A DNA stretch of 42,487 bases, taken from assembly GCA_012270555.1 (NCBI GenBank), contig JAAXIC010000007.1, forward strand, positions 1-42,487, written 5' to 3'. How positions within the stretch are numbered: position 1 is the stretch's first letter; each line of letters begins with the position of its first letter. The notes below the pieces were generated by a model, which saw nothing but the letters and a program-made list of their open reading frames with translations, did no database searches and was not told the origin of the DNA. This stretch comes from Chloroflexota bacterium (GTDB taxonomy: Bacteria; Chloroflexota; UBA11872; VXOZ01). Below, in pieces: positions 5,562-9,358 of this stretch. The position numbers and the translations under genes are program-made.

Positions 5562-7667
5562 ATGGCAACGTCCACTGCACCGTACGCCGCCGACACAATC
5601 CCCGCAGATATGCTCCACACCTACTTGATCCAGCAAGCCCACGTGCTGTTCGACCATGCGGAAAAGGAGCGTGCCGCAATCCAGACACAGGAGCAGTGGG
5701 AGCGGCGGCGCACCCAATTGATGTCTGCCTTCCAGCAAGCAATTGGACCGTTCCCTGAGCGGACCCCACTCAACACGCGCGCGGTAGGCAAGCTGGAACA
5801 AGAACGGTACACCATCCACAAAATAGTCTTCGAGAGCCGTCCCCGTTTCTACGTGACCGCACTCGTCTATGTACCCAAGCAGCACGCCGCGCCTTATCCC
5901 GGCATCCTCTTCCCGCTCGGCCACAGCCGCAACGGCAAAGCGTGGGACAGCTACCAACGCACACCGGCCGGATTCGCCGAGAAAGGCTACCTCGTGCTGG
6001 CGTACGACCCCCTCGGCCAAGGTGAGCGCTGGCAGTACTGGGATCCGGTGAAGAAGGATTCCGCGTTCACCGCGTCCACCCGCGAGCACAGCAACATGGG
6101 CGCGCAATGTTTGCTGCTCGGGATCAATCTCGCCCAGTACATGATCTGGGATAGCATCCGCGCCCTGGACTATCTCCTCTCGCGGGACGACGTGGATCCG
6201 GAGCGGATCGGGTGCACCGGCGTATCGGGAGGCGGGACGAATACGGCACAGTACGTGCCCTTCGACGACCGCGTGACGGCGGCTATGCCCACGTGCTACA
6301 TTGCGGGGTTTCCCGCGCTGCTGGATAGCGTCGGCCCCCAGGACGCCGAGCAGAATCTCTTCGGGCAACTGGCCGTGGGCCTCGACCATGCGGAGTACCT
6401 GACGTTGATGGCGCCGCGCCCCCTCTGTGTAGGCGCTGCCACCGGCGACTACTTTCCGCTGGCGGGTGCGCGCCAATCTGTCGAGAGCGCGAAACGCGTT
6501 TACGCAGTCCTAGACGTTCCCGACCACCTCGCGCTGGCCGTGGCGGAGCAGAACCACGGGTACCATCTCCCCATGCGCCAAGCCGCCTATGCGTGGTTCA
6601 ACCGCTTATTCGACAAAGAAGAGGAAGGCAGCAACGAGACGGAGATCACGCTGGAGCCGGATGAGACGCTCTGGTGTACGGAATCGGGCAACGTCTATGA
6701 ATTGGGCAGCGAGACCGTGTTCACGCTCAACCGCAGGCTCCTGGCAGGTATGGACCCGGCACTGCCCGAAGTCGGCACTGAGAGCGAAGCCGCCAAGTAC
6801 CAACAGGTCGTGCGCGAGCGCGTGCGCCGCGTGCTATCCGCTTCTTCGTTGTCTGGCGACTTAGATCTCACGCGGGTCACTCTCGACGCCAGCGAACGTA
6901 TGCAACGCGAGCGCGTCGTCTTCGAATCGGAGCCCGGCATCCTCATCCCCTGCGTCCTGCGCACCCCGGTCGGTGCCCAGGAAGACACGGTGCTGCTCTG
7001 GATAGACGAGGCGGGCAAAGACTCGGAGAGCACCGGCGTGTTGCTCGATGCCCTGGCGGTGCGCGGCATCACCTCCTTGGCGCTAGACCCGAGAGGTCTG
7101 GGAGAAACAGGCTTCCCAATCACGGACAACCCCGCTACAAGCGACAACGGGCACATCAGCCACAAAGTGGCGTATATGGGATTCTTGCAGGCGCGTCCCT
7201 TGTTGGGAATGCGCGTGCAGGACATTATGCGCGGCATGGACGCGCTGGCAGCCATCCCAGCCACCGCTGCCAAGAACGTCGTGCTCGGAGGCTGCGGGGG
7301 CGGCGCTCTGCTCGCGCTGTTTGCCGCTGCCCTGGACCAGCGCGCGACGGGAGTTATCGCTCACGAGTGTCTGGCCTCGTACCGCTGGCTCGTGGAGAAT
7401 GAATACTACGCGTACGATGCGTCTTGGTTCCTCTTTGGCGTGCTGCAAGAGTTCGATATCTGTGACGTAGCGGCGCTCGTCGCGCCGCGTCCCCTCGTGG
7501 TCTGGACGCCCCACAACCACCAACGGGAGCCGGTCAGCATGGCAACACTGCTGGCGGCGTGTGGACGTACGACCGCTGCCTACCGCGCGTACAACGCACC
7601 CCAGGCACTGCGCTACCGCGAAGATGCCATGACGTCCGCGCGACTGGCACACGAGTTGGGCGTGTAA
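5562..7667 (+). CDS. Two-lobed alpha/beta hydrolase (acetylxylan-esterase/dienelactone-hydrolase type)
   Basis: A 701-residue protein with two alpha/beta-hydrolase lobes and no signal peptide, so probably cytoplasmic. Lobe 1 (about 80-350) has the nucleophile elbow GVSGG with Ser222, an oxyanion-type PLGHS segment near 118-122, a likely acid around Asp296 and His332 in NHGY. These match acetylxylan-esterase-like hydrolases acting on ester substrates. Lobe 2 (about 445-700) has a DPRGLGE strand and the elbow GGCGG, where Cys578 stands in place of Ser, and no obvious NHGY-like His. It may be a degenerate or Cys-dependent lobe. The start ATG at 5562 follows GGAAGGG by about 11 nt. The natural substrate is unknown, and the gene is not in a clear operon. 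Confidence 0.82.
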   Translation: MATSTAPYAADTIPADMLHTYLIQQAHVLFDHAEKERAAIQTQEQWERRRTQLMSAFQQAIGPFPERTPLNTRAVGKLEQERYTIHKIVFESRPRFYVTALVYVPKQHAAPYPGILFPLGHSRNGKAWDSYQRTPAGFAEKGYLVLAYDPLGQGERWQYWDPVKKDSAFTASTREHSNMGAQCLLLGINLAQYMIWDSIRALDYLLSRDDVDPERIGCTGVSGGGTNTAQYVPFDDRVTAAMPTCYIAGFPALLDSVGPQDAEQNLFGQLAVGLDHAEYLTLMAPRPLCVGAATGDYFPLAGARQSVESAKRVYAVLDVPDHLALAVAEQNHGYHLPMRQAAYAWFNRLFDKEEEGSNETEITLEPDETLWCTESGNVYELGSETVFTLNRRLLAGMDPALPEVGTESEAAKYQQVVRERVRRVLSASSLSGDLDLTRVTLDASERMQRERVVFESEPGILIPCVLRTPVGAQEDTVLLWIDEAGKDSESTGVLLDALAVRGITSLALDPRGLGETGFPITDNPATSDNGHISHKVAYMGFLQARPLLGMRVQDIMRGMDALAAIPATAAKNVVLGGCGGGALLALFAAALDQRATGVIAHECLASYRWLVENEYYAYDASWFLFGVLQEFDICDVAALVAPRPLVVWTPHNHQREPVSMATLLAACGRTTAAYRAYNAPQALRYREDAMTSARLAHELGV

Positions 7668-7715
7668 AACCGGGGAACAGACGCCCGGATGCCGGCGGAA
7701 GCTACCTGGATCAAA

Positions 7716-8390
7716 ATGAAAAAGAGGAACCAGTTGCCTGGGAACGCGGGCGTCCCGCCCGCCTCCCTGCCGTCTGCCACCCTTGAGCCACGCGGTTGGC
7801 ACTTTCGCGGCTATCTGCCACACTTCGACGGAGGCACGATCCCGCAGATGGTAACCTTCCGGCTTGCCGGAACATTGCCGTCAACCGTGCTCGATAGATG
7901 GAACCAAGAGCTTAGCTATCTTAGCGAAACGCACAAAAAGACCGCCTTGCGCCGCCGGCTTGAAGCGTACCTCGATCAAGAAACCAAAGATATGCCTTTA
8001 CGCAACCCACAGCTTGCGGCGGTGGTAGAAAATGCCTTGCTCTATTTCGTTAATGCGCGCTACCATTTGCACGCGTGGGTTGTGATGCCGACACACGTTC
8101 ACGTGCTCTTTACTCCAATAGCAGGGCATGCCGTTTCCACAATTATCCATAGCTGGAAGTCGTTTACGGCCCATCAAGCGGTCAAGAGATTCGGCTGCTC
8201 CGCGCCATTTTGGAGCCAGGATTACTTCGACCGCTTTATCCGCAATGAGCGTCATTTCACCGCAGCCCTTGCCTACATAGAAGCCAACCCTGTGAAGGCC
8301 GGTCTCTGCCAACGCAACGCGGACTGGCGGTTTGGCAGCGCGTATGCGCGGGTGGCAAATGGATTCAATTGGTATGAACGAGAGATTTGA
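7716..8390 (+). CDS. REP-associated tyrosine transposase (RayT, Y1/HUH family)
   Basis: A single-strand HUH transposase of the REP-associated type, which cuts and moves REP palindromes by a Tyr-DNA linkage. The HUH motif is MPTHVHVLF (both His visible). The catalytic Tyr is in SQDYFDRFIRNERHF, followed by the family block YIEANPVKAGL. The conserved core starts at about RGYLPHFDGG. Upstream of it the N-terminus reads GNAGVPPAS and is translated from a REP copy (7737-7762). An inverted REP copy sits 120 nt past the stop (8511-8536), so the gene has a REP on each side. ATG 7716 is chosen with GGA 5 nt upstream; the in-frame ATG at 7689 would add 9 residues. The protein is about 224 residues, the usual size for the family. 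Confidence 0.9.
   Translation: MKKRNQLPGNAGVPPASLPSATLEPRGWHFRGYLPHFDGGTIPQMVTFRLAGTLPSTVLDRWNQELSYLSETHKKTALRRRLEAYLDQETKDMPLRNPQLAAVVENALLYFVNARYHLHAWVVMPTHVHVLFTPIAGHAVSTIIHSWKSFTAHQAVKRFGCSAPFWSQDYFDRFIRNERHFTAALAYIEANPVKAGLCQRNADWRFGSAYARVANGFNWYEREI
7737..7762 (+). repeat. REP element, left copy, inside the transposase 5' end
   Basis: A 26-nt REP with stem GCGGGC (7746-7751)/GCCCGC (7757-7762), loop GTCCC and leader CCTGGGAAC. It matches the reverse complement of 8511-8536 at 24 of 26 positions. It overlaps the transposase reading frame and encodes the LPGNAGVPPA stretch. Such REP pairs are the presumed substrates of the transposase between them. Confidence 0.88.
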
Positions 8391-8510
8391 CGTGAACGCT
8401 GCAATGCCGCGCCAGCGCTCCACCCAGCGCCGCGAAGCCCAAGCGCCGCAATGGGTAGCTGCTTTAAGTGCGACGGTGGCCCGTGTATGGGCTCGTGTAT
8501 GGTAGCCTCT

Positions 8511-8536
8511 GCGGGCGAGACGCCCGCGCTCCCAGG
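8511..8536 (-). repeat. REP element, right copy, inverted
   Basis: Stem GCGGGC (8511-8516)/GCCCGC (8522-8527) with loop GAGAC, followed by GCTCCCAGG. Read on the minus strand it matches the left REP at 7737-7762 with two differences, giving an inverted pair around the transposase gene. It lies in the 176-nt gap before the inositol-monophosphatase-like gene, which also holds two copies of GCGCCGCAATG-like sequence (near 8440 and 8542). Confidence 0.88.
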
Positions 8537-8566: not shown

Positions 8567-9358
8567 TTGATTATGCAATCGCCACCCGTTGCGGTCGCAG
8601 TGGCCGCGGCTCAGGAAGCCGGGGCGTACTTGCGTGAAAACGCGGCCAATGCTGCGATTGTGGTGACCAAGGGCCGGGGCGACTTCGTTACCGGCCTCGA
8701 CCTCGCCGTAAACGACCTCGTACAGGAGCGAATCGGCACCGCATTTCCCGATCACCACTTCCTGTCCGAAGAGCTTGCCGCCCGCCCGCTCTCAGAGGAA
8801 CCAACGTGGATCGTCGATCCAATTGACGGTACCCTCAACGTTGCCAATCGCTTTCCCATGTTCACGGTGAGCATTGCGTTGGTAGAGCGCAAGCGACCGG
8901 TCGTCGGCGTGGTGTACGATCCCCTCTTGGACGATCTCTTTGTGGCGGAGGCAGGCAAAGGCGCGACGTGGAATGGTGAAAGCATCACGGTTCGCCGTGA
9001 CGTTGCCTGGCACGACGCGCTGCTCGGCTTCGACTTAGGGCACAACGAGCCGGCCTCCTCGGAGAGTATGGCACTTGCGGCAGCGCTGCGGCCCCAGGTC
9101 GCTGGGCTCCGCATTACTGGTTCGGCGGCGCTTGCCCTCTGTTATGTTGCGGCAGGACGCCTGAGCGGATTCTTTCACCACCGATTGGAACCTTGGGACA
9201 TGGCAGCCGCGCTGCTCATCGTGCAGGAAGCCGGCGGCGAATATGTCGCAATGAACGGTTCTCCTGTAACCTCGCCGCAAGTTGGCTCCGTGATCGCGGG
9301 GAATGCGGCAATCGTAACCAAGATTAGAGAAGTCGAGCGGGCACGCCGCAAAACCTAG
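8567..9358 (+). CDS. Inositol monophosphatase family protein
   Basis: A 263-residue Mg-dependent, Li-sensitive-type phosphatase (IMPase/FBPase/CysQ fold). The metal-site blocks are visible: SEEL near 67, WIVDPIDGTLNVANRFPMF around 80-99, and EPWDMAAALLIVQEAGG near the C-terminus, which supplies the last metal Asp. The substrate cannot be separated between inositol-1-phosphate, fructose bisphosphate and 3'-phosphoadenosine phosphate from sequence alone. The best-spaced start is TTG 8567, 6 nt after AAAGG; ATG 8573 is the alternative and is 12 nt away. The next gene, uppP, begins 19 nt after the stop, so the two are probably co-transcribed. Confidence 0.9.
   Translation: MIMQSPPVAVAVAAAQEAGAYLRENAANAAIVVTKGRGDFVTGLDLAVNDLVQERIGTAFPDHHFLSEELAARPLSEEPTWIVDPIDGTLNVANRFPMFTVSIALVERKRPVVGVVYDPLLDDLFVAEAGKGATWNGESITVRRDVAWHDALLGFDLGHNEPASSESMALAAALRPQVAGLRITGSAALALCYVAAGRLSGFFHHRLEPWDMAAALLIVQEAGGEYVAMNGSPVTSPQVGSVIAGNAAIVTKIREVERARRKT

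Follow-up and report, generated by a model that had tools for sequence, protein, structure and literature searches.

A REP-flanked RAYT gene with a REP-overlapped start in a Chloroflexota genus, and relatives nested in frame in DNA methyltransferase genes

The REP-RAYT-REP unit and its locus

The window, by which we mean the whole 42,487-nucleotide stretch of DNA analysed, is contig C35 of a Chloroflexota genome of 3.18 Mb in 56 contigs (G000). A compact unit lies in it between two co-directional genes, and consists of a RAYT gene enclosed by two inverted REPs. The features at the locus are as follows:

5562 to 7667, plus strand: upstream neighbour, alpha/beta-hydrolase or esterase-like (by eye), the same neighbour being found in the congeners read
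7737 to 8536, no strand assigned: complete REP-RAYT-REP unit of 800 bp, its inverted repeats ending outward in CCTGGGA and TCCCAGG
7716 to 8390, plus strand: RAYT gene, TnpA_REP-like, with HuH motif THVH and catalytic Tyr in YIEANP; a longer frame starts at 7689
7716 to 7766, plus strand: putative REP-coded leader MKKRNQLPGNAGVPPAS, predicted to be disordered
7737 to 7766, minus strand: left REP, with hairpin 7746-7762 (GCGGGCG-TCC-CGCCCGC read on the plus strand) and outer tag CCTGGGAAC; it sits within the RAYT open frame and is read PGNAGVPPA
8502 to 8536, plus strand: right REP, with GTAG head 8502-8505, hairpin 8511-8527 and outer tag GCTCCCAGG
8573 to 9358, plus strand: downstream neighbour, inositol monophosphatase-like (by eye), present in all six genomes of the genus

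The original prediction of a transposase between two inverted REPs was borne out. The 26-nt inverted arms (7737-7762 and 8511-8536) are complementary at 24 positions (92%), and the 23-nt REP consensus occurs twice in the window at up to 3 mismatches, compared to 0.02 copies expected and with none of 100 shuffles giving two, so that two copies exceed the chance expectation. By the NCBIfam model NF047646 (84 bits, cut-off 80), the gene that they enclose is a RAYT. Its product scores 30.8 bits against Pfam Y1_Tnp and has the HuH motif, preceded by T rather than N or D, and the catalytic Tyr in a Y1 fold, for which the top Foldseek match is 4er8, the E. coli RAYT with a REP hairpin (E 1.8e-8; TM 0.71 by target). 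We rejected an IS200/IS605 insertion sequence as a candidate, since the protein scores only 21 bits with the NCBIfam IS200 model (cut-off 55) and is the single RAYT of its type in G000. The right REP hairpin starts 120 nt past the RAYT stop and hence is outside the gene; neither a promoter-like site nor a plus-strand terminator-like site was found near the RAYT. Relatives of the window protein were found in no phage record or viral contig, and in five plasmid records at below 60% identity in every case.

TnpA_REP was reportedly described by Nunvar et al. in 2010 as a HuH-Y1 gene with inverted flanking REPs. The window unit also resembles the REPtron as presented in PMC3733652, a HuH-Y1 gene between inverted REPs with a repeat overlapping its 5' end, and a flanking repeat that overlaps the 5' end of a RAYT is a category ('5'ov') listed by Di Nocera et al. 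(2013) in the same paper. Since REP-overlapped RAYT 5' ends and in-frame genic REPs are already in print (PMC3733652, PMC6006769), the window leader is of a known kind, and the window unit is a REPtron of the ordinary type whose gene start is overlapped by a REP. Perfect GCGGGCG-NNN-CGCCCGC palindromes number ten in G000, both window REPs included. Several of the others are parts of a longer composite repeat, and three of the ten (in C26, C41 and C48) sit at or near contig ends inside the composite repeat GAAGACGTCT...GGCGAGATGCAAACCTGCGCTACCGG, so that the assembly probably breaks at these repeats. G000 also has a second, more distant RAYT-like gene, split into two frames (C12:78568-78962).

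A RAYT between the same two neighbours was found in three of five congeners (L024, L025 and L026, with 86-90% identity), that is, in four of the six genomes of the genus with the window included. The whole block is absent from the other two (G001 and G003), in which the neighbours adjoin with no RAYT and no perfect hairpin between them; a gain of the block within the genus is presumed, and not its loss from these two. Omega for the RAYT body is 0.134-0.284 in all six ortholog pairs, indicating purifying selection. All four orthologous genes retain the left REP; the right REP is perfect in three and imperfect in L024. GTAG is found a few bases 5' of the right hairpin in all four, and GGAG or another tetranucleotide at the left REP (by eye).

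Start codons, leader and hairpin

The RAYT open frame extends to 8390 from a first ATG at 7689 or from the ATG at 7716, the originally predicted start. In-frame ATG, GTG or TTG codons occur at 7689, 7716 and 7734, and the next only at 7848, already in the conserved RGYLPHFDGG region. Because all such codons before 7848 precede or abut the left REP, any canonical start makes the REP coding, and read from TTG 7734 it gives LPGNAGVPPA. Residues 1-20 have a pLDDT of 48-49 in the AlphaFold model of the window RAYT, and the domain is well folded (mean 79.8). The left REP is free of stops in all six frames, but we rejected this as a special adaptation given that GC-rich composition suffices: 25% of the 30-mers of the window and 69% of shuffles of the REP itself are likewise open.

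The leader is in frame in all four orthologous genes, as GNAGVPPA or, in L026, GNTGVPPA. The prediction that the left REP overlaps the start and is translated thus held as regards in-frame read-through of the gene's own flanking REP, but not for L025, in which no canonical start is present and therefore either a non-canonical start (for example, a CTG after the REP) would be used or the leader would be untranslated. Translation of the window leader is plausible; it is likely in three of the orthologous genes and doubtful in L025, because no ATG, GTG or TTG occurs there between the preceding stop and the domain. The ATG-plus-REP segment is tandemly duplicated in L024 and L026. In L026, the first copy forms a 21-codon mini-frame (MKKRNQLPGNAGVSPAALPAI, stop) whose TGA comes right before the second ATG, a candidate for translational coupling.

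Translation could instead start after the REP, for example at CTG 7767, which is kept in all four orthologous genes, leaving the REP as 5' untranslated RNA that is open by chance. L025, with only CTG and no ATG, GTG or TTG ahead of the REP in frame, is consistent with such a start, as are the 42 of 72 standalone RAYTs whose hairpin is upstream of the nearer start codon and, in the part of PMC3733652 on REPs at ORF 5' ends, the view of Di Nocera et al. (2013) that many of these are not codogenic. On the other hand, ATG-AAA-A.. lies 21 nt ahead of the REP tag in three of the four genes, the duplication in L024 and L026 copied the ATG jointly with the REP (the first L024 copy reading ATA), and spacer lengths from REP to body vary by 0 or 6 nt, preserving the frame. 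Moreover, the REPs of the nested relatives described below sit within a far longer open frame, and by eye no clear ribosome-binding site precedes the CTG. An untranslated leader is possible but, in our assessment, not probable.

Leaders in the wider family were examined in 72 standalone RAYTs from the phylum search and from a named-genome scan of relatives in many phyla (best 80 of 509 confirmed loci), four more having too little sequence; L062 and L045 are one gene, both in the count of 72 and both omitted from the tree and junction analyses. A GC-rich hairpin is present within 250 nt upstream of 58 of the 72, compared to 231 of 1440 (16%) random 253-nt windows of these loci. In 24 cases the hairpin is within the open frame but a nearer start follows it, in 18 it is outside the frame, and 14 RAYTs have none. 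GVPPA-like leaders are present in all four orthologous genes but are not a family feature: in only 16 of the 72 does the hairpin come after the nearest usable start (or lack any start) and ahead of the domain, the arrangement seen in the window. A REP directly ahead of a RAYT gene is the rule, and a REP-coded leader an occasional product of close packing.

In RAYTs that have been studied, cleavage acts on single-stranded DNA. The suggestion that enzyme expression is under the control of the leader hairpin, through RNA folding or cleavage of the enzyme's own gene, was not upheld by RNA folding, which was unremarkable on both strands: the fold around the RAYT start is no better than those of shuffles (z -1.04, with 29 of 200 shuffles equally good), and the 7716 ATG is unpaired. 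The hairpin does start 30 nt 3' of this ATG and recurs in each of the four orthologous genes (the inner L026 copy having a stem mismatch), and in ISPpu9 structure in the mRNA leader reportedly governs the transposase (PMC8450116). Nevertheless, the position of the hairpin relative to the start is highly variable among relatives, and a role as unit end would equally predict its conservation, so that we consider control by the hairpin very unlikely.

RAYTs nested in DNA methyltransferase genes

The phylum search returned RAYT matches within open frames of 1207 to 1554 codons, in which the RAYT lies mid-gene in a DNA methyltransferase and both host halves are in one frame. In total, 18 genes hold 19 nested RAYTs, and by record title or genome group they span nine phyla. 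Five of the genes are from 400 Chloroflexota genomes and the rest from the 80 named loci (best 80 of 509), among which 15 are nested, two being the same genes as in the phylum search (L110 and L098 correspond to L054 and L056, each counted once). Fifteen of the 18 are open throughout, contig ends truncate L080 and L086, and L111 was kept although its frame ends soon after the RAYT; L081, whose contig begins inside the RAYT, was left out of the count. In L081 (2-1816) the RAYT open frame continues into an aminotransferase via a hairpin-rich stretch.

By Pfam or PADLOC (PADLOC on seven), every one of the 18 hosts is a DNA methyltransferase. Thirteen, with 14 RAYTs because L089 has two, are HmaB of the Hma defence system or members of the DUF1156 family, three are type III Mod methyltransferases, one is a MmeI-like type IIG enzyme and one an Eco57I-like methylase. 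Defence genes encoding HmaA, HmaC or type III Res adjoin the host at all five loci examined (L063, L065, L087, L089 and L093), which hence are in apparently working operons. Chimeric bin assembly does not explain all nested cases, since these include one in a single-contig genome (G224) and one in the named Candidatus Viridilinea mediisalina. The RAYT family model has matches in 104 of the 400 Chloroflexota genomes and, among the matches listed, five open frames exceed 600 aa, all of them in these methyltransferase hosts; a 509-aa frame in G116 was not counted, its upstream part being arginine-rich and resembling a shadow frame. Among 76 standalone loci we found no out-of-frame RAYT copy in these hosts and no host fragment interrupted by the RAYT, and the only host match was an unbroken DUF1156 gene adjoining the RAYT at the one locus L045/L062. 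In these hosts, RAYT inserts were thus seen only in frame, which would be expected with host function preserved. The apparent bias towards methyltransferase hosts is drawn from sequence matches in Chloroflexota (those listed) and from the relatives of the window protein (best 80 of 509).

HuH and Tyr patterns are conserved in 18 of the 19 nested RAYTs, the second copy in L089 having YLACNP. In the predicted structure of the L084 nested protein, which is poor overall (mean pLDDT 64.7, pTM 0.39), the RAYT forms a domain flanked on each side by a REP-coded stretch of low confidence (residues 458-477 and 658-670), and the best Foldseek match is again 4er8 (E 6.5e-5). By Pfam, the nested proteins contain only Y1_Tnp and host domains and no self-splicing Hint domain, and a nested RAYT as an intein was accordingly rejected.

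The nested RAYTs are flanked by hairpins of the window type, often with the identical GCGGGCG-CGCCCGC stem, and with loops TCC or TCT upstream and GGG or AGA downstream. A perfect hairpin within 250 nt was found upstream of 13 of the 19, downstream of 17 and on both sides of 12 (compared to 16% of random 253-nt windows), and was absent upstream of six and downstream of two. The inversion of a pyrimidine loop to a purine loop, present in 8 of 12 nested and 27 of 49 standalone pairs, is a majority rule but not a universal one. The ends of the window unit, CCTGGGAAC and GCTCCCAGG, recur outside the nested hairpins: a GGGA, TGGG, GGGG, TCCC or CCCA tag is on the outer side of 10 of 13 upstream and 14 of 17 downstream hairpins, and on the inner side of one and two, respectively. 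The corresponding counts for standalone relatives outside the genus are 26/54 and 35/56 (outer) and 9/54 and 7/56 (inner). The unit therefore has definable ends. The closest empty homologs are ~76-89% identical in pieces with unalignable linkers, which leaves target-site changes and exact insertion junctions unreadable.

Origin and proposed mobility of the units

In a quick maximum-likelihood tree of 92 RAYTs, itself short and with weak support (13 of the 89 inner branches starred), nested and standalone RAYTs are interspersed, with 13 changes, and a single nested clade is rejected (p-AU 1.39e-5). Nesting thus has repeated origins; nested RAYTs of type III Mod genes form one clade. HmaB matches occur in 81 of the 400 Chloroflexota genomes, most full-length ones being ~930-1030 aa. 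Of 44 DUF1156-type frames with linker A (site A), five have a RAYT there, one has a REP pair without RAYT (L066), four have another insert, and 34 have neither insert nor hairpin. Linker B holds a RAYT in six of 25 frames and a hairpin in four of the other 19; three nested RAYTs (those of L055 and L111 and the second in L089) escaped the motif used for these linker counts. The open frame of L066 (4114-8310), with its REP pair in linker A and a RAYT in linker B, starts as an HmaA helicase fragment and continues as HmaB, and looks like a deletion fusion.

We consider it fairly probable that a compact unit entered the intergenic gap as a block and that the stop-free design of its REPs allows relatives to nest in frame. 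The REP-RAYT-REP unit would have entered the gap between the two co-directional genes in an ancestor of part of the genus, and would since have been maintained under selection. Since just 22 nt separate the end of the left hairpin from the transposase domain, ribosomes that initiate at the usual codons upstream would read through the hairpin, and the REP, stop-free in any frame, would code for a short disordered leader. Stop-free hairpins tight against a compact HuH-Y1 domain would likewise let relatives sit in frame inside genes, at permissive linkers of defence-system DNA methyltransferases, where the REPs would become flexible linkers and the RAYT would be translated as an internal domain, the host frame remaining open. 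The nested proteins would be made and active. The recurrence of in-frame units in defence methyltransferases, with several origins, speaks for unit mobility, and suggests that REP-RAYT-REP units may move without breaking the gene they enter. The broader proposal, that whole units are mobile in an intein-like manner, with in-frame insertion in permissive linkers of conserved genes (chiefly DNA methyltransferases of phage defence), translation as internal domains, a nuclease under selection, repeated spread between phyla and the window leader as the standalone form, appears to us evenly balanced.

Units might also have entered genes by homologous or illegitimate recombination between resident REPs, rather than by RAYT-catalysed transposition. 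At the corresponding sites, other HmaB genes do have lone REPs or a REP pair (site B of L054, site A of L066), so that a REP may precede, or remain after, a RAYT, and recombination at REPs would yield the same pattern without transposition. A resident REP is, however, not generally present, given the hairpin-free linkers in 34 of 44 frames at site A and the two hairpin-free empty loci of the genus. We regard recombination as rather unlikely; the RAYT itself may have moved the units. Still less likely, in our view, is that the nested RAYTs are domesticated methyltransferase domains, their HuH nuclease acquired for defence and not a mobile passenger. In favour of domestication are the identity of all 18 hosts as DNA methyltransferases, the adjoining defence genes at all five loci tested, the HuH/Tyr patterns kept in 18 of 19 and slow evolution: omega is 0.08 for the nested RAYTs of the type III Mod pair L086-L093, compared to 0.25 in the host part after the RAYT, and 0.076 compared to 0.21 for the HmaB pair L056-L087, five of eight RAYT pairs giving no value because synonymous sites are saturated. 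TnpA_REP has also been termed a domesticated transposase, in a passage of PMC8266576. Yet most HmaB genes have no RAYT, the nested copies are at different sites (two in one gene, L089) and mixed with standalone ones on the tree, and linker A also accepts other mobile-looking inserts.

As for mobility, sections of the 2021 RAYT paper (PMC8266576) state that there is no evidence of it for tnpA_REP, and those of Quentin et al. (2018; PMC6006769) likewise, a statement against which the nested units speak. In the open-licence PubMed Central literature, preprints excluded, we found no description of a RAYT lying in frame within a different gene. The part of PMC6006769 on data selection describes unexpectedly long proteins being dropped as fusions or annotation errors, a filter that would remove nested cases. 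The standalone RAYT genes treated in PMC3733652 differ from the present set in that here the overlap was traced through orthologs and relatives were found inside host genes. TnpA_REP of subclass 2.4, as outlined in PMC6006769, share with the window gene REPs that leave the transposase frame unbroken, but these are generally between the HuH and Tyr motifs, and not in an N-terminal leader as in the window; by motifs, the window protein looks closer to subclass 2.7 of that classification. Rickettsia palindromic elements and other intragenic REPs, as summarized within PMC3733652, are likewise palindromes in frame within functional genes, but these are repeats alone, whereas here a transposase lies between the repeats. 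With inteins and homing endonucleases the analogy is one of life style, a mobile gene in frame in conserved hosts at recurring sites; unlike with inteins, no splicing domain was found, and the RAYT would remain part of the host protein, held there by linkers that the REPs encode.

Recurring in-gene sites beside empty homologs make RAYT mobility testable, with the host gene as an in-frame landing site. Some defence methyltransferases carry an additional putative HuH nuclease domain, which annotation pipelines may remove as an apparent fusion or mistake, and peptides encoded by REPs may be genuine protein segments. Should the nested proteins be active in both functions, they would be a natural case of a transposase carried by a host protein with host function intact.

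Linker A of HmaB also has inserts of other kinds, of ~150-180 codons in L173, L174, L175 and L180. Those in L173 and L175 hold a 23S rRNA intervening-sequence protein gene (PF05635, E 6e-38 for L175) on the same strand in another frame, the host frame being open through the insert, in apparent overprinting. The DUF1156-type methylases L178, L184 and L180 have an in-frame DUF559 endonuclease-like domain (PF04480, E 1e-31 in L178; the others by eye) flanked by repeats translated PSPAGRGEG or PSPQGRG. In L176, the HmaB of G062, an intein-like insert of ~430 aa splits the catalytic DPPY motif (STDPPY/C...HN/CDNISYADLSDF, by eye).
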